DNA from: a virus
DNA: 23,159 nucleotides
Reading direction: 5' to 3' (one strand)
IMG/VR virus record: IMGVR_UViG_3300032053_002817
Coordinates: 1 to 23,159 of that record
In this document: one piece after another, positions 3,426 to 19,835 of the stretch
How positions within the stretch are numbered: position 1 is the stretch's first letter
Layout of the letters: each line of letters starts with the position of its first letter
Translations under genes and position numbers: made by a program
Notes under the pieces: model-generated
The model's input: only the letters and a program-made list of their open reading frames with translations
What the model was told of the DNA's origin: nothing
Databases searched by the model: none

Positions 3426-3753
3426 CCAAAGCATTCTCGAAACTGTAGCCCGCCGTGCAAAAGTCACGGCGGGCTTTCTTTGTTTATCACGCGAGAAGGA
3501 CGTGACCGCATGGAGGATGATCGCCATCCACATGATGCGGGAAAGCGGGATGACGATGGCAAGCATCGCCGCCGCCGTAGGTCGGGACGCATCCACTATC
3601 CATTACGTTTCCACAAAAATAAACAAGCTGAAGAACCAGAAGTGGTTCATCGAAATGCTGGCATCGATTGAGGAGGAGCAACGTCTCGACGTGTTCTGCC
3701 GCCAGCGCATACCAATGACGGTGTACGCTGCGGCGTTCGCATCGGAGGATTAA
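3415..3753 (+). CDS. Stand-alone DnaA domain-IV-like HTH protein, 112 aa
   Basis: Residues 4-73 follow the helical pattern of DnaA domain IV, the DnaA-box binding HTH. SQSILETVARRAKV matches the lead helix, TAWRMIAIHMMRESGMTMASIAAAVG matches the RQIAMYL...LSLPEIG region, and GRDASTIHY (56-64) matches the signature GRDHSTV. The AAA+ domain of DnaA is absent, so this is a DNA-binding protein, not an initiator ATPase. It might bind phage or host origin sequences, or act as a regulator (inference). The start at 3415 is needed to include the first helix. A strong intrinsic terminator lies inside codons 11-24. The TAA shares TTAA with the stop of the giant gene on the other strand. Confidence 0.78.
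   Translation: MLNSQSILETVARRAKVTAGFLCLSREKDVTAWRMIAIHMMRESGMTMASIAAAVGRDASTIHYVSTKINKLKNQKWFIEMLASIEEEQRLDVFCRQRIPMTVYAAAFASED
3447..3485 (+). terminator. Intrinsic terminator inside the DnaA-like gene
   Basis: There is a perfect 11-bp GC-rich stem (AGCCCGCCGTG 3447-3457 with CACGGCGGGCT 3465-3475), a 7-base loop, and then TTCTTTGTTT. The U-rich tract exists only for the plus-strand transcript, so it should stop transcription of the left gene block. It lies within the coding sequence of the DnaA-like protein, about 33 bases after its start, so it may act as an attenuator for that gene. Confidence 0.8.
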
Positions 3754-6700
3754 GGCTCGATGAGAATGTAACGGCTGTATTTTTTAAGCTCGTCGTTCGC
3801 GATCTTTATCCGCTCCATGCCCTGCTCGTTCGTCGGGTCAGCCAGTCTGGCTTGGAAGTCAGGCGTGAGGACGGGACGATCCATCATCTTGTTGAATAGC
3901 AAGCGGGATCTATCTTTCCCGTAACCCATGTTCTTGCCTGTCATAATGCTGTAGATCTCCTGAGTCGGTAAGCCTAAGCCTTCGTACCCGCGCAGCTTGC
4001 GATAGATCTCTTCGTTCATCGCCGCCTTATCCTCCACTTCCGATGTGACGATCTCGCGGATGGATGCCTCATCGATAGGGCGTTCGCTAAACAGCACATT
4101 CTTCCGCTCATTGATGCGGTTGTACACGTCACGCGACTCCGACAAGTAACGCCTGAGTTGCTTATCCAATTCGATATCGTGACGCTTAACAGGATAAACT
4201 TCCTGCATCAGGATACCGATGGGCGAGCTATCAAAATCCGTATAGTCGGAGCCGACCGCCTGATAGGATTTGATGGCGCGATTCATAACGCTTGGCATAT
4301 ACGCCTGACGGAATACGTGAGACATCGACTTGACAAGAACGGTTCCCGTCGAGTCGATCTTCGATTCGTAGATCGGCTTGTCAGTCGCGGGATCACGGTT
4401 GTCTCGCAGCGATTGGATGGCGGATGAGAAGATCTGATCGTCCAGATACTGGTCGAAGATCGCCGTCTCAACCAACGATGCCGCCGCTTTGGCAAGATCG
4501 CCGCGCACCAGATGCTCCATCGAACGCAGGGCTGGATCGGATACCAATGAAAATGGATTGAGGAACGTGAGATCCCAAGACTGTAGCTTGCCATCGGATC
4601 GTCGGCGGTAAAAGAACGTGTGGTTTCTTAAGTAAGAAGGCAACGAAGCGCGTAAGGCTTCGTCTTCATCGTCTCCGATTCCCGTTATCGCACGGAGTAC
4701 GGCGGGAACGATCATCGAAACGCCGCCCACTACGAAGGTCATGCCAGCGAAACGCTTTTGTCCGCGTGCTTTGATGACGCTGTTGTCGCTCCTCATCTCA
4801 TCGATGGCGAGCTTGTACGTGTTCAGTACGATGCGCGGGACTTCAGCTTTGAATCGGAGGAACGGCGAGAACAGTAGACCGATGCCCGACTTGGAGATCT
4901 CCTTCACGATGGGCGGAGCTTGGCTTGCCGACTGCGCTGTCATCAGGACTTTGCTCGCTGCTTCACGCTTCAGCTCGTAGTCACTCATCGTTCCGTACTT
5001 GCCGCCGCCCGCAGTTCTTGCGCTCGTAAGTACTTTGAGTTCGTTCTCATAGTAGGCGATCTTGTAGAATGCATCGGCGGATTGCGCGAGAAGCTGTGCC
5101 TTCTCCGTCAGCCATGTGAGCGGCTTCGTTCCTGAGTGGGCGACCTTGATCAGCTTGTCCAACTGACTTTCAACAGACTGGATTGTGGTTGTGCCGCGCA
5201 GAAGATCCGCCATGACGGTGGCTTTGATTTCGTTTCCGATCACACCCAACGAAATGAGTTCCGAATGGTACGTATCTATCTGATTTGGATCGGAAAGCGT
5301 AGACCAGATTTCTTTGCGAGCCGTACCAATCATCGATCCGAAGTTGACGAAGCCTTGTGAAGGTCCAAAGAAAAGGATGTTGCTGGCGATGTTGCGGATG
5401 TAGAAGCCTAATGATCCTAAAGTCTTCGCCGCCATCGCTCCGCCCGTAAGCTTTGCGAATAGGCTCAACGTCTTAGCCACACTTTCTTGTGCGGTGTCCA
5501 TGTTCTGGTTGCGGGATTCCGAAGAGAAGACTTTGTTCAGACCTTCGACAAGTTCGGGAGGTCCAAAGAGATCGCCCAATGGATCGTAAGCGGATGCATC
5601 TTTAGCATGACGGATTGTGGTGTAGTTCTTATACGTATCGTAGTCAGCGGTTAGCTTCGCGTCCAGCTCTGCTCTGGTCATCAACCAACCGCCATCAACT
5701 CCGATGGTCTTAACGTGTTGTAAGAATGATTGGTTAGCAGCCATCGATGAGACGGTCACGAACGAACGAAGCAGGTTGTCAACTCCTGATTCGGAACCGT
5801 ACTCTCCTAAGATACCGCGAAGTTCTTCTGGTATATCTTTCTTCTGCTTGATGTTCTTCAGAAGGATGCGGAACGATTCAGACATAGATGAACCAGCGAG
5901 AGGGGAGATTCCTTTTTTCTCGTAGTGCGAGATGAATTCCTCCAGAGCGTTCTCTGAGATAGACCTTCCGTTAGCAGCTTTGTTTGCCAGATCGATACGA
6001 GCGTTGTTCTCCGCGTCGGACTCAGTCTCGCCAGCCTTCACCCGACGTGCTGTCTCATACTCCACGAACTTCTCCCCAAAAAAGTCCATCGCTGCCTGAC
6101 GCTGTGGTTCGTATGACGGATCGCTGCGTACCGTTTCGGCAAAGCCTACTTCGTGGAACATCTTATACGAGCGGGTCAAGTAGATGCCCAACTGCGAATC
6201 GAACGTAGCTGCAAGCTCAGGCTTGAATCCGTACAAAGATGTTACTCGATTAGATACTTCATCGGTTAATGTTCTGAGCTGTACAATGTGGCGTGCAAGA
6301 TCGGGAGACTGCTTCGCGAGACTCTCAAGTGCAGCATTGCGTGCCGCACGGATTGCATCGGCTTGTGCTGTTCGTTCCGCATCGATGGCTTGCGCTTTGT
6401 CATCGATAGCAATCTTCCGTGCCGCCGTCTTTTGCTTTGCGTTGAGCGTAGTGTCGATGTCTATCGTCTCAAGTGCTGTTTGATACGTGTCTTCGATCTG
6501 ATCGACGATAGCTTTGTCCAAGACTGTACCGCGTGTAGATCCGATGGCAGCTGCGATGTCGTCGAGCGGTGCGTTCTTCAGAGAACCGAAGTCCTTCTCG
6601 ATGATACCGTCGAGCTTAGTCTTGTAGTTCTTAACCAGATTTGCAGCTGCGCTCTTGAAGAAGTCGCGATGGTTCTTCAGAGTGGTGATGCGCGGGTCGA

Positions 6701-6860
6701 GTTCTCCTTTGAAGAGACGGTCTAGTATTGTTTTGGGCGAGCGGTACGTACCGACTTCAAGCATCGGCATCTCCAACGCTTGCACGAAGTTGCTGAAGTC
6801 CATCTTGTCCGCGTCGAAGCGAGCGGGCAGTTGTGATACATCGCCGAAGGATGTACCTAC
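3750..6860 (-). other. Giant protein segment F (residues 3094-4129): LPD38-like C terminus
   Basis: A long charged helical region (about 3150-3330) leads to TLGSLGFYIRNIASNILFFGP, then GIGLLFSPFLRFKAEVPRI (3752-3770) and a hydrophobic GMTFVVGGVSMIVPAVLRAITGI (3799-3821). This order matches what I know of 'large polyvalent protein associated domain 38'. The last ~200 residues are charged and helical. Probably structural: packing in the capsid or membrane insertion. Confidence 0.5.
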
Positions 6861-9800
6861 TTTGATTGAGTCTCCTCCATTCTGCGGTACGAATGGCGCA
6901 GCCCGCATCTCTTCCGTTATAGATCTCGCACGGAGTGATCCTTTCGGTAGGATGTGTACGGGTATCGCCGCAGCTCCTAACTCCGAAGCGGCATCTGTTC
7001 GGCTACGTCCTTCATGGTCTGAGACTTCCCAGACTTTGGATCGCTCATTCCAAATGGCTGACAAAAATGGAGGAGCGATTGCATTCCCTTCCGCTATCTG
7101 ATTTTTAATAAATGGAATAGTCTTCTCGTCGAAGTTACCTTCTGGAACTAATGAACGGAAGTCAGCTGGACTCATCGTCTTGACGAATCCGAAGTAGTCG
7201 ATATCAGCCTGATTCGGAGTACCTCCTACGCCAGTGCTGTCCCACTTTATGTCACCGAAGGATGTACCTACAGAGACATTAGTTTGTCCAGTAGCATTTC
7301 CAGTTGCGAGTTCGTCATCCCCTCCGCTATTTCGTGGGGTTCGATTGGTTCTGATGGATTCTGCGATGGCTCTGGCTTCGTCTCCGAATCCGCGTTGCGT
7401 TGCGATGTTAATGAATTCTTCGTCATAAGATAGTTTAAGGTTGCTCTCCTCTTTCCCTGTTAGCTTTGCCCAAAGATCTTTTTCTGGATACCACAGGATG
7501 GCTTGGATGTCTGCGTTAGTGGTTTCATATCCTAATGCTTTTAATTGTAAACGGCTATTGTTGACAATCTTCGTGATCACTCTGCGATCTTGATCGGACG
7601 GTGCATCGATGGGGTTGAGCCTTGCTTTGATGACGCTCGCGGCATTAGCCCATGATGGCTTAACCTCTTTCATCTGGTCTTTGGTAAGGAACGTATCCCT
7701 TCCTGCTTTGGCAAACTCTTGCGCCCTCCACGCATCAATCGTAATGCGCGGAGTCTTACCTTTTGCAACCAGCGCATCAAATTTATTTGGCAAATCATTA
7801 AGCAACACTTCCCGTTTGGCATCGGTAAGCTTTTCTTTTTTAGCCGCAGCGATAGTCTCTTTTGTTTTCTTTGCCATCCAAGCTTCCCGCGTAGTCGGAG
7901 GAAGGTTCTTACTGGCTGACAGTGCTGCGTGTTCTGCGTTAATTTTTGTGGCGAGCTTATCCGTAGTAGCAACATATTGCTTTAAAGTTATTTTGCCAGA
8001 CAGTAAGTCGTCGGACAACTTCTGACTTATCGGCTGACCCAATAACTTGTATTGACGTTCCCATTCAGCGTTGAGCTTGATGGCGGTATCGTTGCACAGC
8101 TCCCTGAATTTTCTATCTGTCGTGAGTCTTTCAACGGCGGTATACTCAACGGTTAATTTTGTACTGCCATCTTTTTTTATGATAGGCTTGCCCGCTTTAT
8201 TTAGGTCGGGAACAAGCTTAATCTTTTCGAGAGCATAAGGTAGAGGGACATTAGCTTCTCTCGCTCCAATAATTAAGTTAGCCAGACGAGATTCAGTAAC
8301 GCCGTCACCGACTACATCGCCAGTCCATCGACCCCATGTACGCCGCATCCATAGATCAACCGTGACAGGATCATAGACCGACAGTAAATTCTGTAAGAAT
8401 CCCTGTCCAATCTTCGGTCCAAAGAGTGCCGCTCCGTTTACTTTGTCGTCGTTGGCTCCAGAGACGGTGACTTTCTTGCCACGGATCTCGCTTGCAATCG
8501 CCGTCAACTGTTTAACAGTAAACTCTTTTCTAACAAACATCTCCCCTTCTCCATATCCGTATTTTGCAACTAGAATATTTGCAAGATTGAGATTACTTTT
8601 GATTGCTGCGGCTTTCGATCCGTAGCTTATTGTTGGGTCAAATTGTCCGTCACGCTTTAGTGCTGTGAATTGCTCTTCGGCGTATCGGGTATTCTGTTCT
8701 ACGTTGATGTTCTGCGAAGTGATGGCGAGTGCCATACGCATTGCAAAGTTCGCTGCCTGTACTGGATCAGCAGCAGAAGCAAATGCTGGCACAGCTCTCG
8801 CTGCGTTGACATCTGAGAGTTCGGGATGGATAACAGCGGCAACACTCATCGCTACTTCAATCGCAGTAGAGTACCAGTCGGCGGCATTCCTTCCGCTAGC
8901 GTTGAGCGCGGCGACAACTTCTCTTGTGCAGTTGTCCGTGATAATAGCCATCTGCTCTGGAGTAATGTTGTTGCTAGTAACTATACCGCCCCAGAATTTT
9001 TGAGCCATCTCCGCCAGTTGATTGGCAACAACTTTGTTGGTAGCTTTGACCGCAGACTTTGTCGCTCCATGTAGTAACAGGAGAGAGGACATTGGGAACG
9101 GAGCTTCTGAAAGTTGAGCAGCTAGATCACCGAATGATGTGCCTACTTGATTAGAGAACATTCCAACTACGTCGGATGGATTCTCTGGATCGAATGACAT
9201 TGAGTTCGGAGACAAACGATATCCCGATTGCAGCGCACGCATCTCAGTGACGATGCGTTGGACGGCTACAACTTCATCGGCAGACATCGCGAGAACAGAC
9301 TTGCCACGAACAAAAGATCCAACTTCGTTATTGATGTTGATTGTGTTGCCAAACATCAGGTTGATCATGTTCTTTAGGTAACGTCCAAGAATCTTTAATG
9401 TGCTTGGGTTAGTTCTCCAGAAGGCGTAGTCCTGTTCGGTCGTAGTATTGCGCTGAACTTTCTGTGCCAGCATCCGTAAGCGTTCCTCAACGAGACGTAT
9501 CTTCTCTGCTCCCGAAACTTCAGGATCTTCACTGCGAAGTCTTTCAAGACCGAGCGCACGGTTGGCTTCGTTACCGTAGTATTCGTTTGCGATCTCTTCA
9601 AAGTCCGAATCCTTTTTAGCCTTGACGATGGTGTCGATCTCAGATTCCGTAAGTGAGTTGAACGAAGCGACGTGACGCATCTCCTCATCCACCATCGTCT
9701 TGATGGCGAGACTCGCTTGAGCTGGAGTCCTGCCGATGAGGAGTGCCGCTACGCTCTGAGGATTCATTGACATCACTCCCGTCTGAAGATCAACCTCAGC

Positions 9801-12800
9801 CATTGATATCTCAATGTCCCAACGTAATGCAATCTCTTTAGGAACCAGTCGGCGGACAAGAAGCATCGAACGCTTCATCGTCTCGATCATCGTTTTGTTC
9901 GTATCCGTTGTAGGATCAAACGCGATACTGGCGGGATCAACATCCAACATCAAATCAGAAACCTGAACATCCTCATCAGCTTTTGCTGCGGCTTCTTCTG
10001 CTTCGGCGGCAGCGTACTCGTTATCGAGAACATTACCGTCTCCAGTAACAGCTCCGAACGCAGTGCCTACACTCTTCGCGTTAGCCAGCAACTCGCTTGA
10101 CTTAACGGCGAGCTTGTTAATCAAACCGCTTGGAGCGTTAGGCGCAGAGTGAATAGCTGAACGTGTGAGATCGATCACGTCCGTGAACGCCTGTTGGTAA
10201 GCGGACTGTCTTGACTTGCCCATTCCGAATACGTCGAGAATCGCATCGACAACGCGAGCAAAGAATCCACGTTGTTTAGCTGGAGGCGTGAGAGTCTTAA
10301 CCAGATTCTGGAAATCGGTTGACGTAAAGAAGTGTGCGACGAACTCGTTAAGATCAACCAGACCATCCGTTAGCATCGGTGAATCGATCCCGTTATTGGC
10401 AGCGGTATCACGTACCAGATTCAGGATTCCGTTCAAGCGTTGGATAGCAGAACGCTGATCTTCCGTTTGAAGTTCGGTCGGAGCGGACACTACTCTGTTC
10501 ACGAAAGCGTGCAGATACTCATGCATCAATGCATCGGATAGTCCTCTGCCGTTGTGTCCATTCAAGTTCAACGATACGGCTGACGTACCGTCTGCCATCA
10601 CTACGAACTGACCAGCGTATGGTAAGCTGACTTCGTCTAATGAGAAAGTAACTTGTCGGATAAAGGATTGGTTCTCCAGTAGGAGTCTAGCTAGAAGCTT
10701 CTTGTTCGGATCTGTATCCGTAGCGGCGATGACTTTAAAAGCGTTGATGACGGATTGTGGATCACCATCCTTCAGCCCTAAGCTTGCGACATCTGCGTCG
10801 TTCAGATTGCGTGCGAACTGTGCTTGTTCTCCGCGCACGTAGGATCGCGAGAACAAACGTGTGGCTACTTGTCCGATTGACTTAGCAAACTCTCTGGCTT
10901 GTCTGTTCGTTACGGTGAATCCAGATGACGATGAAAGATTTCTTGCCAGTTCTGCAATGTAATCAGGATCTTGATCAATGCTTCCAGTAACTGATCTAGA
11001 TGCGATGTGCATAATCTTCAGCGCATCACGCAGAGCCGTGCCATTTTCATAGTCACCGTCTTGAAGACCTCTTTGGAAAGCAATGGCTTCGGGATTGGTA
11101 GCGTGGTTCCCGCTTGCCATCCACGATGCGAGTTGACTGAATGCGTCTTGCGAAGTCATCCCGCTGATATCGAATGCACTATTCCCTTTATACAATGTAC
11201 TACGTAATAGTTTATCCAACGCTGTACGTAACTCAGGATCAGCATCGATGGATTCGATGGCATCCGATGCCGTGCGTTGTAACAAACCCTTAGTGAACTG
11301 AGACGTTGGGCTAAACAGATTCTTATCAGGAGTAATGTGCTGGATAGATACTTCTTGATTAGGATCATATGCTTGATCAGAAATCTTAGAGAGCTTGTCT
11401 GGAGACGTTGTCTGGAACAATGCTCTACGTGCAAATAAGTTTCTTCTTCTCTGCTGATCTGCATACATATTGCCAACTTTTTCACCGACAGAACGTAAAG
11501 TCGGTGGGACGGTAGGAGCTGTGAGGATATGGTTGTTGATGAAGTTAGCGATAACTAGATCAGGATTTGTTTCAGGATTCACATCGCTTCCGAATGTTTT
11601 TTGGAGGCGGGTAGCAACGATAACTTTTTGGTTGACCCCCTCTGGCTTCGTTAATCCAATGAATTCATTGATAGCTGCGCTGACTCTGTCAGGTTTAAGC
11701 GAAGGAGAAGCTTCTCCAGAGACACGCTGAGAGGATTTGTCGAATGACAATCGCATGGCGTGCAAACGCAGCGCACGGCGGTATGCCATATCGAACGCAA
11801 TCGTCGCCGTTTCTTGGAAAGTACTATCTAATGTACCAGAGTACGGCTTAATTGCGTCCGCAATACGGGTAGCAGATTCATTTCTACTTCTGCTTCTGAT
11901 CCTCAAGCGAGCGGCATTGGCACGCACCGCATCTCGATATTCTGTCTCATCTCCCTGATCTTGGAGCTTCTCCATAGCGTCGGTACGCATATTGGTTACG
12001 GTATTAAGTGCATCTCTGAGAGTAATCTTTTCGCTTTGCTTAAGCGGGTTTGAGATAATTTGCTCGCCAGCCGTCTTGTTATTAAACAAGTTTTCAAAGT
12101 CACTTACTTTCGTAATGAAGTCGTAATCTGGTTCCTCACTAAGAACGGTATCCTGTCTCGTAAGCGTCGATACGAATCCCGATCCCGTTGCGGGATTTAC
12201 TTTGACGATATCAGTAAGAATATGCTCGCTGCCTAGCTTGCTGTATCGGAATGATGGATTGATCTTACTAAGATCAAACCCTTCAGGTATCACAACAGGA
12301 TGGTTGTTCTCCATCAGTACCTTCATCGTCAACGGATTGTTGTCGAACTCACCGACACCATTATCGTTGACGTACCCTGTAGGAGCAGTTCTGGTTTTCT
12401 TATTTAGTTTAGTATCAAATATAGTTACTCTGCTACCTATTACTTTAGTCCAATTTTTCTGTACGGATAGGGCGATAGACTTATACATCTCAGCCGTCTT
12501 CTTGGCTATCAAGTCAGACTTGCCCTCAAGATATCCTGTGTCGTAAGATGCACGCTTCGGGTATCCGTGTAGTTCTTTCGCCTGTAAGCGAACGGGGAAC
12601 CCGTATCCGATTAGGCGTTTAAGCGTGGAGATTTCTTGTCCAGTAAACTCGTCGTCGATGAACGTCTCTTCATCAAATATTTCTGGTACTTTTTCAGTGG
12701 GTTTCTCAGATACATCTTGCCCGAAGGATGTTCCTACTTTGGTTGACTTCTTGCTAGCTTTGGTTGGCTTCTTGCCAGCGGCAATGATCGGGACAGACGC

Positions 12801-15800
12801 GACAGTATCTTCAACAGCGGCTTCGACAATAGCTTCGCTCTCGTCTACGGAGCCAGCGTGGTTGCTGCTCTCCATGATAGCTTCTTGAATCGGATCAAGT
12901 CCAAGCTGTTCGGCATCAGCCGTCTTGTCTTGGTTCTTGATGCTCCGTCTAGAACGTGGAACTTTTACTGGCGGTGCGCCGTTAGCGGATAGCTGGAGTT
13001 CAAGTTGTCCCGTCGGAGCAGATGATGCTTCTTTAAGAGATGCCTCTTTCTGTTCCATCTGAGCGACAACAGGACTAACTCCTTTTCTGGCAGCGGTTTT
13101 GCGTCCCTTCTTTGCCGTTTCATTCGGGATAGAATCAATATCCATCCCCACATCTGGAGCCTTATTGGGGTCGGTGACGATGGCAGAGGCAACAGATTCT
13201 TGTGACGTGTTCGCGTGTAGTGCGGCAGACATCTTTTCGACTTCGGCTATCGTCGTCGGCATCTTCGGCTTCTGCTTTGCAATCGCTTCTTGATTATTTG
13301 TCAAATCAAGTTGCGTGATAACGGTAGCTGCTTCGTTGCCATCTTCATCCGTGTAAGTTACTTCTCTAGTTTCTGGATCGTATCCAGTCACTTTAAGTAC
13401 ATCACCAAAACGATCAGTGATTTCTCCTGCGGAAGCAACGTCCGACTTCAGGAGTTCGTGCATCACGTCGTAGTCATCGGGAGTCTTGTACTCTGCTTCA
13501 GTAGCCACAACAGGCGCAGCCACAACAGGCGCAGCCACAACAGGCGCAGCCACAACAGGCGCAGCCGCAACAGGTGCAGCCGCAACAGGTGCAGCCACAA
13601 CAGGCGCAGCCACAACAGGCGCAGCCGCAACAGGTGCAGCGGGACGTGATGCTTTTAACTGCGCTTCAGCTGCCATTGCGCGTGTGCGTCGTGGAGCTGA
13701 CAGAATTCCATATACGGCTTGAGCCGTTAATGGACTGCCGCTGGCTTCAAGCGAAGAGCTGACTCTTTTAGCGAAGTCAACTTCAACCGCCAGTTGGCGT
13801 TCTCGCGAGCTTTGTTTGAACATTGGAGCAGCAGCCCCACGGATCGCTGGAACACCTGCGCCCATAAACCCACCGAGAAGTGCGGCGTAACCCGCTTGTT
13901 CTAGTCGCTTGAGGAACGGAGTATTCTGATCGGTTGCTGCATCGGTTATGAATCCGTTGATGAAGTCATCAAGACCTTCTTCCCCTGCTTCGTCTACAAA
14001 CCCTTTGCCAACTTCTTTAGTTAAGTTTGATCCGTATTTTTTAAATACGTTTTTCATTTCTGCCGCAACAACTTTATTGAAGACTTCGTCTTTGATGTCG
14101 CTGACATTGGCGATACGCGCCATAACGGATTTGAGTTCGCTTCTGGTAGCACCTTTGAGCATTGCGTCTTCAAGACCGCCGTGACCAAATGCTCCGAACG
14201 CGCCCGTAATCAATCCTGTAATTGCTCCTGCTGCTAGTCCCGCTCCCAACGCACGGTCGTGACGTTCTTCGGGAGTGATGTCTTTATTGTTTTCCAGCTG
14301 TAGATACACACCTGCATAGGTAGCACCAGCAGAACGGTTGAACGCAGGAATTGCCATCGCCGAAGTGACCCCGACCTTTTTAGCCATCTGGCTATTGAAT
14401 CCGTTGATAGCCGCCATCGATCCTTTTGTGCCAGCTTCTTTAACCGATTCTTTAATCAAGCCAGCAGCAGCGATGCGAGATGCTGCTCCTTCTACTGTCT
14501 CATTTGGTAGCTGGCGGAACGCCCCACTAACCAAACCTTTAACCAATCCCTTAGCGGTAAGTCTGGCTCCCTGTTTTGCAGCGAGATATGCAGCACCTCC
14601 GATCCCGCCAGCTGGAGCGGTTGCCATAGCTAGAAGCGTCGTAGCTGCCATGTCAACGATCATTGGAGCAATCGTCTCTGAGAGATCTTGACCCATGCCA
14701 TACTCACGTCCGAACATACGTGCAACCTCACGTCGATTCTGCCTCTCTTTGATGTTGCCCACCATGTAATCACGCGCCCAATCAGCACCCATTATCGCTG
14801 GCACGGCGGATAACAGTTCCCCAAAACCGTCAAGAATGGATTCTTTGATGCCGCCTACGCGGCTTGTAAGCTCGCTGAAGTTATCTGGATTAGATACAAA
14901 TTGCTGAAGAGTATCCGAGTCTTTACTCCCGCTGGCACGCCCGCTCTGTAATGCGTTAAGCCAGTCACTTGAAATCGTAGATTCTGTTAGGATTTTGTTG
15001 TAGCTATCAAACGAGTTTGCTGCGGATATTTCACGCTGTGCGTTCAGAGCAGTCCTTTGGCTTTCCGTAATCTCAGGATGCGCTGCTAGAGCTTTATCAA
15101 ACAGTGGCTTGTTCAGCATCAGTGCTGGAGAAACAAATGGCGTGCCATAACCGACGTTGCGGACGTTGCGACCCACGTCTTCATCTTCATAGAATTTAAA
15201 TTTGTTCTGGTCGTTCGCCGAATAGTAAGCCAGTTGAGTAAGAGCTTTATCAACTTCTTCGTCACTAAACGTATGACCTGATTTAAGGTTGGCGTTGAGG
15301 GAACGCCGTACAGCGGAGATGTCAGGCTTCTGAGCATCAAAGATTTCTCTATCGTTCTCATCAGCCCATGCGAGAGATGTTCCAAAAGAGTCAACAACTT
15401 TAGCCGTCTGCGCATCGTTCTTAACAAGCTCGCCAATCATAGCGGCAGCTTCGTTATAACGTGCCACTTTATATAGCGGAGCTTTGTACCCTAACGGAGT
15501 GCTGAGTAGCGACTGCACGTTCAGAGCGTCTGAGAAACCAACGCCTCCTGTTTTACTGGAGCGGATAGCTTCGGAAAGGTTCATCGAATCCATCATCGAT
15601 CCAGCGATGATTTCTTGCTCGCCGTCTTCGTTAGTTACTCTAGCAAGTGGTAGTTCTCCGTTAAGTACTTTGATACGTTTTGCAGTATCAAATCCTTTTA
15701 GGGCAGCTTCTTCGGCTTCTTGTCTGTAACGGTCACGCGAAGGGATTAAGTCGGGAGCGAGATTATCAAGATCTTTATGGACGGATTTGAAAGTCAAGTA

Positions 15801-16139
15801 ACGATTTGCAGCCGCCCATTCAGGATCACTGGTATCCATCGCGTCTGCCATCATCAAGAGCTTCGTGTCAAGATCTGGCTCTTTAGTCGTAAACAAAGAG
15901 TCTACTTCCTCTTGGTTAGTTGGATCAATCAATCCAGCTTCAGCGGCTTTGTCTCTGGTTGCAGTGTTGATCTCGTTTGCAACGGTGCTATTGTAAGAAT
16001 TTGATTTGATATATTCTCCGCGAACATAGTCAGCGTATCCTTTCCTATTCTCGATAGCGTCTCCCGAATTATTTTGCGGCTCCCAATCTTTAAACGAAGT
16101 AAAGTCAGGCGTTTTGAGTAAGTCTTCAAGCTCTGGCAT
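3750..16139 (-). CDS. Giant multidomain polyvalent phage protein, 4129 aa
   Basis: One uninterrupted frame, roughly 450 kDa. In order: a helical N terminus; membrane-active glycine/alanine helices (about 489-523, 629-652, 748-771); a (P)VVAAP linker (836-880); a zincin-like site MHEYLHAF (H1873, E1874, H1877) with a downstream NEFVAHFF glutamate (E1932); a degenerate DEEMRH site (2151-2156); a helical domain with GPK...VTVDLWMRR and IQAILWYPEK (about 2480-2900); a ParB-like domain with HEGRSR (3042-3047); and an LPD38-like C terminus (GIGLLFSPFLRF at 3752). VGT(S/A)FG recurs at 1135, 2024, 2332, 2957 and 3094. Known: phage 'polyvalent' proteins of this architecture are packaged and injected with DNA. 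Inferred: this is an ejected virion protein, possibly processed. It follows the 338-aa gene by 28 bases, in the same transcript as the two smaller putative virion proteins. The start ATG at 16137-16139 has no Shine-Dalgarno site. Confidence 0.88.
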   Translation of the reverse strand: MPELEDLLKTPDFTSFKDWEPQNNSGDAIENRKGYADYVRGEYIKSNSYNSTVANEINTATRDKAAEAGLIDPTNQEEVDSLFTTKEPDLDTKLLMMADAMDTSDPEWAAANRYLTFKSVHKDLDNLAPDLIPSRDRYRQEAEEAALKGFDTAKRIKVLNGELPLARVTNEDGEQEIIAGSMMDSMNLSEAIRSSKTGGVGFSDALNVQSLLSTPLGYKAPLYKVARYNEAAAMIGELVKNDAQTAKVVDSFGTSLAWADENDREIFDAQKPDISAVRRSLNANLKSGHTFSDEEVDKALTQLAYYSANDQNKFKFYEDEDVGRNVRNVGYGTPFVSPALMLNKPLFDKALAAHPEITESQRTALNAQREISAANSFDSYNKILTESTISSDWLNALQSGRASGSKDSDTLQQFVSNPDNFSELTSRVGGIKESILDGFGELLSAVPAIMGADWARDYMVGNIKERQNRREVARMFGREYGMGQDLSETIAPMIVDMAATTLLAMATAPAGGIGGAAYLAAKQGARLTAKGLVKGLVSGAFRQLPNETVEGAASRIAAAGLIKESVKEAGTKGSMAAINGFNSQMAKKVGVTSAMAIPAFNRSAGATYAGVYLQLENNKDITPEERHDRALGAGLAAGAITGLITGAFGAFGHGGLEDAMLKGATRSELKSVMARIANVSDIKDEVFNKVVAAEMKNVFKKYGSNLTKEVGKGFVDEAGEEGLDDFINGFITDAATDQNTPFLKRLEQAGYAALLGGFMGAGVPAIRGAAAPMFKQSSRERQLAVEVDFAKRVSSSLEASGSPLTAQAVYGILSAPRRTRAMAAEAQLKASRPAAPVAAAPVVAAPVVAAPVAAAPVAAAPVVAAPVVAAPVVAAPVVATEAEYKTPDDYDVMHELLKSDVASAGEITDRFGDVLKVTGYDPETREVTYTDEDGNEAATVITQLDLTNNQEAIAKQKPKMPTTIAEVEKMSAALHANTSQESVASAIVTDPNKAPDVGMDIDSIPNETAKKGRKTAARKGVSPVVAQMEQKEASLKEASSAPTGQLELQLSANGAPPVKVPRSRRSIKNQDKTADAEQLGLDPIQEAIMESSNHAGSVDESEAIVEAAVEDTVASVPIIAAGKKPTKASKKSTKVGTSFGQDVSEKPTEKVPEIFDEETFIDDEFTGQEISTLKRLIGYGFPVRLQAKELHGYPKRASYDTGYLEGKSDLIAKKTAEMYKSIALSVQKNWTKVIGSRVTIFDTKLNKKTRTAPTGYVNDNGVGEFDNNPLTMKVLMENNHPVVIPEGFDLSKINPSFRYSKLGSEHILTDIVKVNPATGSGFVSTLTRQDTVLSEEPDYDFITKVSDFENLFNNKTAGEQIISNPLKQSEKITLRDALNTVTNMRTDAMEKLQDQGDETEYRDAVRANAARLRIRSRSRNESATRIADAIKPYSGTLDSTFQETATIAFDMAYRRALRLHAMRLSFDKSSQRVSGEASPSLKPDRVSAAINEFIGLTKPEGVNQKVIVATRLQKTFGSDVNPETNPDLVIANFINNHILTAPTVPPTLRSVGEKVGNMYADQQRRRNLFARRALFQTTSPDKLSKISDQAYDPNQEVSIQHITPDKNLFSPTSQFTKGLLQRTASDAIESIDADPELRTALDKLLRSTLYKGNSAFDISGMTSQDAFSQLASWMASGNHATNPEAIAFQRGLQDGDYENGTALRDALKIMHIASRSVTGSIDQDPDYIAELARNLSSSSGFTVTNRQAREFAKSIGQVATRLFSRSYVRGEQAQFARNLNDADVASLGLKDGDPQSVINAFKVIAATDTDPNKKLLARLLLENQSFIRQVTFSLDEVSLPYAGQFVVMADGTSAVSLNLNGHNGRGLSDALMHEYLHAFVNRVVSAPTELQTEDQRSAIQRLNGILNLVRDTAANNGIDSPMLTDGLVDLNEFVAHFFTSTDFQNLVKTLTPPAKQRGFFARVVDAILDVFGMGKSRQSAYQQAFTDVIDLTRSAIHSAPNAPSGLINKLAVKSSELLANAKSVGTAFGAVTGDGNVLDNEYAAAEAEEAAAKADEDVQVSDLMLDVDPASIAFDPTTDTNKTMIETMKRSMLLVRRLVPKEIALRWDIEISMAEVDLQTGVMSMNPQSVAALLIGRTPAQASLAIKTMVDEEMRHVASFNSLTESEIDTIVKAKKDSDFEEIANEYYGNEANRALGLERLRSEDPEVSGAEKIRLVEERLRMLAQKVQRNTTTEQDYAFWRTNPSTLKILGRYLKNMINLMFGNTININNEVGSFVRGKSVLAMSADEVVAVQRIVTEMRALQSGYRLSPNSMSFDPENPSDVVGMFSNQVGTSFGDLAAQLSEAPFPMSSLLLLHGATKSAVKATNKVVANQLAEMAQKFWGGIVTSNNITPEQMAIITDNCTREVVAALNASGRNAADWYSTAIEVAMSVAAVIHPELSDVNAARAVPAFASAADPVQAANFAMRMALAITSQNINVEQNTRYAEEQFTALKRDGQFDPTISYGSKAAAIKSNLNLANILVAKYGYGEGEMFVRKEFTVKQLTAIASEIRGKKVTVSGANDDKVNGAALFGPKIGQGFLQNLLSVYDPVTVDLWMRRTWGRWTGDVVGDGVTESRLANLIIGAREANVPLPYALEKIKLVPDLNKAGKPIIKKDGSTKLTVEYTAVERLTTDRKFRELCNDTAIKLNAEWERQYKLLGQPISQKLSDDLLSGKITLKQYVATTDKLATKINAEHAALSASKNLPPTTREAWMAKKTKETIAAAKKEKLTDAKREVLLNDLPNKFDALVAKGKTPRITIDAWRAQEFAKAGRDTFLTKDQMKEVKPSWANAASVIKARLNPIDAPSDQDRRVITKIVNNSRLQLKALGYETTNADIQAILWYPEKDLWAKLTGKEESNLKLSYDEEFINIATQRGFGDEARAIAESIRTNRTPRNSGGDDELATGNATGQTNVSVGTSFGDIKWDSTGVGGTPNQADIDYFGFVKTMSPADFRSLVPEGNFDEKTIPFIKNQIAEGNAIAPPFLSAIWNERSKVWEVSDHEGRSRTDAASELGAAAIPVHILPKGSLRARSITEEMRAAPFVPQNGGDSIKVGTSFGDVSQLPARFDADKMDFSNFVQALEMPMLEVGTYRSPKTILDRLFKGELDPRITTLKNHRDFFKSAAANLVKNYKTKLDGIIEKDFGSLKNAPLDDIAAAIGSTRGTVLDKAIVDQIEDTYQTALETIDIDTTLNAKQKTAARKIAIDDKAQAIDAERTAQADAIRAARNAALESLAKQSPDLARHIVQLRTLTDEVSNRVTSLYGFKPELAATFDSQLGIYLTRSYKMFHEVGFAETVRSDPSYEPQRQAAMDFFGEKFVEYETARRVKAGETESDAENNARIDLANKAANGRSISENALEEFISHYEKKGISPLAGSSMSESFRILLKNIKQKKDIPEELRGILGEYGSESGVDNLLRSFVTVSSMAANQSFLQHVKTIGVDGGWLMTRAELDAKLTADYDTYKNYTTIRHAKDASAYDPLGDLFGPPELVEGLNKVFSSESRNQNMDTAQESVAKTLSLFAKLTGGAMAAKTLGSLGFYIRNIASNILFFGPSQGFVNFGSMIGTARKEIWSTLSDPNQIDTYHSELISLGVIGNEIKATVMADLLRGTTTIQSVESQLDKLIKVAHSGTKPLTWLTEKAQLLAQSADAFYKIAYYENELKVLTSARTAGGGKYGTMSDYELKREAASKVLMTAQSASQAPPIVKEISKSGIGLLFSPFLRFKAEVPRIVLNTYKLAIDEMRSDNSVIKARGQKRFAGMTFVVGGVSMIVPAVLRAITGIGDDEDEALRASLPSYLRNHTFFYRRRSDGKLQSWDLTFLNPFSLVSDPALRSMEHLVRGDLAKAAASLVETAIFDQYLDDQIFSSAIQSLRDNRDPATDKPIYESKIDSTGTVLVKSMSHVFRQAYMPSVMNRAIKSYQAVGSDYTDFDSSPIGILMQEVYPVKRHDIELDKQLRRYLSESRDVYNRINERKNVLFSERPIDEASIREIVTSEVEDKAAMNEEIYRKLRGYEGLGLPTQEIYSIMTGKNMGYGKDRSRLLFNKMMDRPVLTPDFQARLADPTNEQGMERIKIANDELKKYSRYILIEP
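6861..7271 (-). other. Giant protein segment E (residues 2957-3093): ParB-like domain
   Basis: This 137-residue unit is bounded on both sides by VGTSFGD. It contains a strand/helix lead-in (QADIDYFGFVKTMSPADF), APPFLSAIWNERSKVWEVSDHEGRSRTDAASELG and a final strand AIPVHIL. This follows the ParB/sulfiredoxin pattern in which G/D-HxR (here HEGRSR, 3042-3047) begins a helix, followed by 'G...vPv.i'. ParB-like domains occur in polyvalent proteins. Its small size and clean boundaries make it the best test case for processing. Confidence 0.6.
7272..9146 (-). other. Giant protein segment D (residues 2332-2956): helical polyvalent-type domain
   Basis: This 625-residue helical segment contains GPKIGQGFLQNLL...PVTVDLWMRRTW (about 2574-2604) and ADIQAILWYPEKDLW (about 2876). 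Pairs of such motifs recur in a domain of unknown function seen in phage proteins; I recall it as DUF7178-like but cannot verify that here. A lysine-rich helical insert lies between them (about 2700-2830). No catalytic residues could be assigned. Confidence 0.45.
9147..10070 (-). other. Giant protein segment C (residues 2024-2331): degenerate zincin-like
   Basis: This 308-residue segment holds TMVDEEMRHVASFNSL, where EExxH (E2152 to H2156) replaces HExxH at the start of a helix. EEIANEYYG follows at a distance compatible with a third-ligand glutamate. The preceding ISMAEVDLQTGVMSMNP resembles a zincin edge strand. It may be an inactive or altered relative of the domain in segment B. This reading is tentative. 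Confidence 0.4.
10071..12737 (-). other. Giant protein segment B (residues 1135-2023): zincin-like domain
   Basis: Near the end of this 889-residue segment, ALMHEYLHAFVNRV places H1873, E1874 and H1877 in an HExxH arrangement. LNEFVAHFF 55 residues later offers E1932 or H1936 as third zinc ligand. The preceding strand AGQFVVMADGTSAVSLNL fits the edge strand before the active helix in zincins. Family knowledge: HExxH zincins are frequent in phage polyvalent proteins. The rest of the segment is mostly helical and unassigned. Likely an active peptidase; its target may be the host or the protein itself. Confidence 0.7.
12738..16139 (-). other. Giant protein segment A (residues 1-1134): membrane-active N terminus
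   Basis: This is the part before the first VGTSFG. About 480 helical residues precede glycine/alanine-rich hydrophobic stretches at roughly 489-523, 629-652 and 748-771 (for example GAGLAAGAITGLITGAFGAF). Between them is FVDEAGEEGLDDFINGF, a pattern common between membrane helices of phage ejection proteins. A VVAAP linker follows, then about 250 charged, probably disordered residues. Penetration of the host inner membrane during DNA ejection is inferred from the hydrophobic pattern only. Confidence 0.6.
13501..13635 (-). repeat. Nine 15-bp tandem units encoding VVAAP/VAAAP
   Basis: Nine consecutive 15-bp units of GCAGCC(A/G)CAACAGG(C/T) fill 13501-13635 exactly; the first begins GTAGCC. Read on the minus strand they give proline-alanine-valine pentapeptides at residues 836-880. 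Only two unit variants exist (ACA..C giving PVVAA, GCA..T giving PVAAA), so the array is young or homogenised. It likely forms an extended, protease-resistant linker after the membrane-active domain. Confidence 0.9.
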
Positions 16140-18037: not shown

Positions 18038-18063
18038 ATCTTGCAAATAGCGAATTGCAAGAT
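18038..18063 (-). terminator. Hairpin at the TerL stop codon
   Basis: A perfect 9-bp inverted repeat ATCTTGCAA / TTGCAAGAT (18038-18046 and 18055-18063) with an 8-base loop directly abuts, and shares one base with, the TerL stop codon. No run of U follows in the direction of TerL transcription. It may be a weak or factor-dependent terminator, or an mRNA 3'-end stabiliser. Confidence 0.4.
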
Positions 18064-19835
18064 TAGTCGTAGATAACGGATTCGTCGTTTGCCAAAGCGT
18101 TGCGGAGCGAAGCAATAGTCGGACGCTGCATCCTGCTTCCGTTATCTTTTTTCTCGAAAGGCTCCACGGCAACCATGCCATGACGCTGTCGCGCTAAGTC
18201 GAGACAGAGGAACGCGGCATCCGCTAAGTCGGGAGATCTTCCAAACTTCGATTTGAATTCGATTTTCGATTCGATTTTGACGCGCAGCGACGTTCCTTTG
18301 ACCAGCTCATAGTTTCTAGCACAGATCTCTTTGGCAAGATCGACATTGATTCCAAACAACTGCTTCGTTCTGATAAGTTCCTTACCGACGAACCAGAGTT
18401 CGGATACACGATTTATGTACAGCTCCTCTCCCGTAAGCTGGCTGTTGGCACTCACACGCCTGTCAGACGCTCTGCCGCCGAAGCCGACCCGCAAGAAGGC
18501 GGGTGACCACTCTCCCGCCAGAACGTCGCAGAAGGGCGCACCTGCTCCCGTACTGTCCACCGCGATGTTATCGGGCAGAATGCCGCGCTTGAGGCAGTGT
18601 TCTTTGATTTGTTGTACAATCTGATACGTTCTTGGAATAGCCTTATTCCTAGCGTCATCGTTCAAGTGGATGGCTTCGCCCAATTCCGTGACAAAATGCC
18701 CGTCCTTATTGTATCCGACAAGTCCTGTATAAAGAATCGTTCGGTCACCACCGTTGGTGAACGCAGGATCGATCCCAGCAATCGGAGTCGGTCTTCCCTG
18801 CCACTCAACTTTGTGAAATGCCTGACTGCGCGACAACTCCGCTTCGGAGTAAATCCCTTCTGTCTCTTCCGAATCGAAGAAAACGGCGCGAACCATCCGC
18901 ATATATCCACGCGATGTCTCTCCCAATAAGGCTCTGTCTTCCGCCAGCTTCTCTTCTGTAGGAAGCCAAGAGTACAGTGTTTTACCAGCCAGAATGTTCG
19001 GAGAACGCTCGCCGTCCAATCGAATGTATTTGCCTCCCCATTTCGTTTCCCACTCATCATCTACTTGGACATCGATGCCGTCCCAACCTCTTTTCGGTTC
19101 TGACCATACTCCAAATGCGTCGAATCGACTATTCGGATTGGACATCCCGATCATCTGGAACTCTGGATTCTTAGACAAGTTAGATAGTCCTGCATTCAGA
19201 ATGGCTTCGCTTAGTTCAGAAAGCTCGTCTCCAATAAGTATGACCCGCTTCTGCTTGATACCAATGAACTTGCCGATGGCTTCGCGTGTCTTACTCCGCT
19301 CCGCTGCAATCAACGAAAGACCAGCCTTCTCGATCAAGTCACCGTTCTCATTGATGTAAGCGACGTTACCAATGGAATCCCGAATCCTGATGGGTGCGTC
19401 CTCAAGCACCGTCAGCAAGCTGATCACGGAACCCCATATCCGTTTACGCGCTTCGCGTAGCGTTGTGGACGTTAAGAGCACCAGAGTGTCACGCGGTTGT
19501 GCTAAGAAGTTCACAATGCCCCAAGCAGCCATCGTATGCGATTTTCCGCTGGATGCCGATCCTCCGATGGCGAGATACTTATTCCGTATCGCTGCTTTAA
19601 TCATCCGATCTGCCCACGGATGACGAACCATCAGCTGTTCTGCCATGTCAGGGCGATTCCAAAGCTCGTCACAGATGCGCCAGAAATAATATTCTTTAGC
19701 AATAGGCTTTGTATGGTTCGCGAAACCGTACAGCAACGCCGTGATTAAACTCGTCGGTCTGATCTCCAGACCTCCGACATCCATCTTTTTTGTTGTAGGA
19801 TTGATTCTAGGTTCCAGAACATTTTTTGTTTGCAT
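18063..19835 (-). CDS. terL: Terminase large subunit (packaging ATPase-nuclease)
   Basis: 590 residues, normal for TerL. The ATPase domain has Walker A GGSASSGKS (91-99), Walker B VILIGDE with catalytic D203-E204, and a coupling-type motif MSNPNS near 231. The C-terminal RNase H-fold nuclease has D356 in IAGIDPAF, D427 in IAVDSTGAG, and D536/D539 in SPDLADA, together the metal-binding acidic set. It cuts concatemeric DNA and powers its translocation into the prohead through the portal. The start ATG at 19833-19835 leads MQTKNVLEPR and has no Shine-Dalgarno site. A TATAAT box lies about 50 bases upstream. Unusually, the next genes are putative ejection proteins instead of portal, and the terminase-small-like gene is divergent. 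Confidence 0.95.
   Translation of the reverse strand: MQTKNVLEPRINPTTKKMDVGGLEIRPTSLITALLYGFANHTKPIAKEYYFWRICDELWNRPDMAEQLMVRHPWADRMIKAAIRNKYLAIGGSASSGKSHTMAAWGIVNFLAQPRDTLVLLTSTTLREARKRIWGSVISLLTVLEDAPIRIRDSIGNVAYINENGDLIEKAGLSLIAAERSKTREAIGKFIGIKQKRVILIGDELSELSEAILNAGLSNLSKNPEFQMIGMSNPNSRFDAFGVWSEPKRGWDGIDVQVDDEWETKWGGKYIRLDGERSPNILAGKTLYSWLPTEEKLAEDRALLGETSRGYMRMVRAVFFDSEETEGIYSEAELSRSQAFHKVEWQGRPTPIAGIDPAFTNGGDRTILYTGLVGYNKDGHFVTELGEAIHLNDDARNKAIPRTYQIVQQIKEHCLKRGILPDNIAVDSTGAGAPFCDVLAGEWSPAFLRVGFGGRASDRRVSANSQLTGEELYINRVSELWFVGKELIRTKQLFGINVDLAKEICARNYELVKGTSLRVKIESKIEFKSKFGRSPDLADAAFLCLDLARQRHGMVAVEPFEKKDNGSRMQRPTIASLRNALANDESVIYD

Follow-up and report, generated by a model that had tools for sequence, protein, structure and literature searches.

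Lineage-specific peptides at the borders of exchangeable modules in a giant phage protein

Polyvalent proteins of phages and conjugative elements (Iyer et al. 2017, PMC5512222) raise the question of how multidomain injected phage proteins are dismantled, if they are dismantled at all. This question can be asked of a 23-kb linear virus record, analysed here over its whole length of 23,159 nucleotides and referred to as the window, in which a giant ORF carries the same hexapeptide five times. An earlier sequence-only reading took VGT(S/A)FG to be a cleavage or docking site that divides a possible self-processing polyprotein, and named as the alternative a junction used in domain exchange. Its interpretation as a whole is partly supported. 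The features that matter for the argument are collected in Table 1, in which a short border peptide, VGT(S/A)FG in the window, is called a seam. All five peptides were checked and lie at the residues and minus-strand coordinates that had been claimed for them; they are preceded by K, S, Q, S and K, also as claimed, but the Asp said to follow the peptide is present in three of the five copies only, the other two having Gln and Ala.

Table 1. Features of the window, with remarks on related proteins
Feature	Positions	Strand	Remarks
Giant ORF (4129 aa) for a modular phage protein of polyvalent type	3750..16139	-	related proteins of 3911-4414 aa in the same clade
Seam 1, VGTSFG, residue 1135	12720..12737	-	common to L003 only; missing in L002, L004, L006 and lineage B
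Zincin-like region	10071..11153	-	HEYLH at residues 1873-1877 (nt 10509-10523) and downstream NEF glutamate; fold search weak
Seam 2, VGTAFG, residue 2024	10053..10070	-	after the zincin-like region; VGSSFG in L002
Seam 3, VGTSFG, residue 2332	9129..9146	-	L002 has LGTSFGD, lineage B ATQ(F/L)G(A/S), lineage C LSSAP/LASAP
Block between seams 3 and 4	7272..9128	-	part common to podovirus-type phages ctEw122, ctQRb9 and DC33
Seam 4, VGTSFG, residue 2957	7254..7271	-	left edge of the exchangeable cassette
Cassette, ParB-like unit, 131 aa, residues 2963-3093	6861..7253	-	other units there in L002 and L003
Seam 5, VGTSFG, residue 3094	6843..6860	-	right edge of the cassette; the conserved C-terminal block starts here
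Conserved C-terminal block, about 1030 aa	3753..6842	-	core common to 70 IMG/VR loci and to Cellulophaga and Pseudoalteromonas phages
Large terminase subunit, context marker	18063..19835	-	PHROG 2, E 1.6e-16

The giant ORF lies near a terminase gene on what is a phage fragment, and a distant relative of its product bears the annotation 'virion structural protein'. The protein is probably injected into the bacterium. It joins several unrelated effector-type domains in one phage-derived chain, and their order is mosaic among relatives, both of which mark a polyvalent protein. No tRNA genes were found in the window. The protein encoded at positions 6-1145 of the window combines a DUF2201 VWA-like domain (E 1.4e-22) with a long acidic region of Gly-Asp repeats.

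Could such a peptide recur by chance, or through low complexity? The giant protein does contain an Ala-Pro-Val repeat (AAPVVA and variants, at about residues 840-890), which would lend this reading some colour; residues 801-900 are just 71% identical between the window and its closest relative. However, about 0.0005 copies are expected from composition, none of 2000 shuffles of the giant protein has any hexapeptide at four copies, and the peptide is kept in relatives at matching borders. This explanation is vanishingly improbable, and for lineages A and B, introduced below, it is already refuted.

Relatives were sought by scanning viral contigs with the whole protein as query, and those closest to the window, here lineage A, comprise two full-length proteins, L003 (90% identical) and L002 (71%), together with the partial copies L004-L007. 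A scan of genome contigs gave no relatives, and neither the cassette region nor the terminase had a tblastn match among named phages. Both full-length relatives retain seams 3, 4 and 5. What lies between the last two of these is wholly different in the window, L003 and L002, although the flanks are 70-98% identical. The unit in the window had been read as ParB-like and framed by two copies of the peptide; both points hold, its predicted fold giving Foldseek matches to ParB (probability 0.97-0.99, E about 0.01). A relative of this unit (50-52% identical) occurs in L220 at a different position and without seams. In L003 the slot is occupied by 176 aa that match methyltransferases weakly in Pfam (E 0.001), a unit with a 55% relative in L226, likewise shortly before the C-terminal block. 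In L002 it holds two units, one GNAT-like from a reading of its sequence (a Pfam search gave no match) and one ART-like (weak Pfam match to ART-PolyVal, E 0.025), with an extra TSFGDVS seam between them. The placement of the peptide at domain borders is thus borne out, since cassettes are replaced between its copies in relatives.

The breakpoints are sharp. Between the window and L003, homology stops with the final base of seam 4 and resumes at the first base of seam 5, and in L002 a 26-bp seam copy, CTGCAAACATCCTTCGGCGATGTCTC, stands between the two cassettes and is repeated identically at site 5. Homology breaks at the peptide, and the slot is an exchange border, so that the junction alternative of the sequence-only reading has direct support at sites 4 and 5. 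Effector modules are in this way swapped within one reading frame at fixed borders.

Two sister lineages have seams of their own. Lineage B (L144-L147, 58-59% identical in the C-terminal block) has a peptide of the ATQ(F/L)GA type at matching borders. The slot in L146 is empty and has a single seam, IGTQFGAASQLP; in L144 it holds a GNAT-like cassette with two seams, and L145 and L147 each combine two cassettes with three seams. Seam 1 is absent from this lineage and site 2 shows no clear seam. A first alignment had left site 3 without a seam in L076 and L077, which share their contigs with L144 and L146, a result overturned by the ATQ(F/L)GA found there in L145 and L147. Lineage C consists of L219 and L230 (at 51% identity), with the seam LFSAP or LYS(A/S)P and, at site 3, LSSAP and LASAP. 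At the border corresponding to seam 2, L219 has an ART-like cassette between LFSAP copies, with a further LFSAP at the C-terminal block; L230 is without this cassette, and LYSSP occurs there once. The case for lineage C comes from two proteins and from repeats of five residues, with seams and register picked by eye, and some 5-mer reached three copies in 7 of 500 shuffles. Empty and filled slots can be paired directly (L146/L077 with L144/L076, L230 with L219), and across the compared relatives of lineages A to C, n cassettes go with n+1 seams.

This count, together with the breakpoints and the 26-bp copy in L002, would also be left by recombination alone, with the seam serving as short homology for exchange, each insertion duplicating the resident seam, and the peptide having no function. 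The codons of lineage A lend weight to such a scar. The sequence-only reading held that the peptide, not the DNA, is conserved, which is half right for the window, where codon identity among copies is also above chance: Val is GTA in all five seams (23% gene-wide), Thr is ACA in four of five (20% gene-wide), and 32 of 56 codon pairs are identical where 17.7 are expected (p = 0.002). The same excess is seen in L003 (p = 0.0003). Because seam codons in lineage A agree beyond the expectation from codon usage, at least some copies are recent duplicates. However, the sister lineages tell against a scar without function. L147 has ATQFGA three times, with 4 of 18 codon pairs identical against 6.5 expected, and L219 has LFSAP three times, with 5 of 15 against 4.4 expected and with AGT alongside TCN among its seam serine codons. 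Synonymous sites are saturated in both and the peptide is intact, which argues for selection on the peptide and not only on the DNA, since a functionless scar of such age would have decayed. As judged from these codons, peptide-level conservation is established for lineage B and suggested for lineage C, where the sample is smaller. Recombination leaving nothing but a scar is, on balance, improbable.

What, then, would the peptide be conserved for? With sites and register picked by eye, the mean BLOSUM score is 22.4 among copies within a protein and 3.5 for the same site in other lineages. Copies that are alike within a protein and change together between lineages point to one common reader of the motif, and we infer from these alignments that a single partner may recognise all copies. 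Predicted flexibility at the window cassette suits cleavage or docking alike, with pLDDT below 50 at both of its seams (model residues 1-5 and 133-144). Of the cleavage or docking idea in the sequence-only reading, what stands is a probable role at the protein level, backed by the peptides of the two sister lineages, each uniform within its protein and synonymously saturated.

The best reading is that the peptide is a linear motif, specific to each lineage, which marks the borders of exchangeable modules and is recognised by a single common partner. As the comparison of relatives shows, slots for enzyme modules are bordered by a short seam peptide within flexible linkers, and cassettes are gained and lost through recombination that breaks at the seam, which leaves an occupied slot with one seam more than it has cassettes. 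The seam is also maintained as a peptide, firmly so in lineage B and by suggestion in lineage C, with copies kept alike in each protein and changing together between lineages. Its reader is most likely to be a protease that cuts the modules apart, either ahead of packaging or once they have been injected, and proteolytic release at the seams is the putative role that we tentatively favour on these comparisons, at somewhat short of an even chance. That the seam is the site of a processing protease releasing injected effectors, with protease and seams having co-evolved, is possible, and we hold it with less confidence.

Alternatively, the seam could be a docking or packing motif that is never cut, binding one partner at each module border. 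This partner might belong to the capsid, be an ejection protein or a chaperone, or be a groove on the giant protein, and the chain would be stowed or threaded stepwise. Docking fits the uniform peptides, their joint change and the flexible linkers as well as cleavage does. In its favour as well, no suitable protease was recognised among the L003 genes scanned: ten other genes of that genome gave no Pfam match to a protease, and nine of these ten plus one more gave none in PHROGs. However, any docking partner is hypothetical, the TSFGD DNA pattern has exact matches within the giant ORF and nowhere else in the L002 and L003 contigs, and docking alone leaves the position of the seam at cassette borders unexplained. 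We consider it somewhat unlikely.

If the favoured reader is a protease, one candidate lies in the same chain, as the sequence-only reading proposed. The HEYLH it named is indeed in this protein, between sites 1 and 2, so that the window has the HEXXH with downstream glutamate of a zincin-like metallopeptidase, and HEYLH or HEYTH with that glutamate is conserved across lineages A and B. In the predicted structure of the region, three strands precede the HExxH helix, and autoproteolysis by such domains has been suggested for polyvalent proteins (PMC5512222). However, a search of the model against the PDB gave no significant fold match (best matches at E > 0.2, some of them to zincins), and seams and site do not go together. 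L218, L220, L221 and L226 have an intact HEYxH and no seams, and in L219 and L230, which do have seams, HExxH is replaced by EEYxH, with loss of the first zinc histidine. The zincin is therefore doubtful as the seam protease, and self-processing by it is very unlikely; the proposal that this segment cuts VGTSFG is not supported by the comparison. The reader protease would probably be encoded elsewhere than in the zincin-like domain of the chain. A site repeated at domain borders, as in a self-processing polyprotein, is present, but an active protease in the same chain does not co-occur with the sites, so the class of self-processing polyprotein is not claimed. EEYxH also replaces HExxH in L215, L216, L222 and L223, which, with L219 and L230, suggests on sequence grounds that metallopeptidase activity has been lost in part of the clade.

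The seam characterises lineages A, B and C and is not shared by every protein of this kind. Beyond these lineages, the core of the C-terminal block was traced through a total of 70 viral contigs as well as Cellulophaga and Pseudoalteromonas phages, and no repeated seam peptide was found in these wider-family relatives, including phages that share blocks with the window. Most of the wider family swaps modules without one; for instance, the slot after the block common to podovirus-type phages also differs between DC33 and ctEw122. Homologues with the same domains and no border peptide, which the sequence-only reading would have counted against itself, thus make up most of the wider family, but not the clade of the window. 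A family-wide seam motif, [FY]S[KRLVI], was rejected, as it is not enriched across the 70 relatives. So was the idea that peptides recurring where the C-terminal block starts are generally in excess, there being no excess on average in 66 proteins (mean percentile about 0.5); recurrences there that convince by eye are confined to lineages A and B and L219. Lastly, the idea of VGTSFGD as a motif common among phages was dropped, because elsewhere in the viral contigs scanned it occurs in unrelated contexts only.

Several individual phages deserve mention. In Pseudoalteromonas phage Y3 (L069, OR779980.1), the C-terminal 319 residues of WPJ21802.1 are the first 319 of WPJ21803.1. The pair could be a single giant gene that an assembly artefact or a recent duplication has divided, and a gene boundary at site 5 in Y3 was dropped because of this identical stretch. 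Limnohabitans phage DC33 (L071, PQ492659.1) is filed under Inoviridae, and its giant gene and neighbours are like those of tailed podovirus-type phages. Cellulophaga phages phi19:3 and phi13:2 (L128 and L136) are distinguished by about 119 residues inserted in a linker of the related protein, without a seam peptide.

Viral polyproteins have cleavage sites matched to their protease. The window protein resembles them in having one short peptide that is repeated at domain borders and changes together between lineages; unlike in viral polyproteins, its cleavage and protease are only putative, and its borders double as points of cassette exchange. With polyvalent proteins it shares giant size, multidomain make-up, zincin-, ParB-, ART- and methyltransferase-like modules and mosaic order. 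Processing of polyvalent proteins has been proposed as likely, but the portions of the source used here mention no repeated, lineage-specific border peptide (PMC5512222), and a literature search found no paper containing the string VGTSFG. Also treated in the same portions are DdrB and DarA of phage P1, which are large, have related domain types, and are head-internal, packaged and reported as proteolytically processed; these portions describe no repeated cleavage motif for them, and processing in the window is only putative (PMC5512222). The virion RNA polymerase of phage N4, reported there as packaged unprocessed (PMC5512222), is likewise a giant virion protein with a zincin-like domain, the comparison being one of description and not of homology.

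A peptide that is nearly uniform in each protein and different in three lineages can be put to the test as a candidate mark for cutting or for docking, and its lineage-specific form gives exact predicted fragment ends for mass spectrometry. It also offers a sequence rule for locating cassette slots in uncharacterised giant phage proteins. If release at the seams is true, each phage lineage would have a 'cut here' word peculiar to it, which would also be the point for plugging in new effector cassettes.
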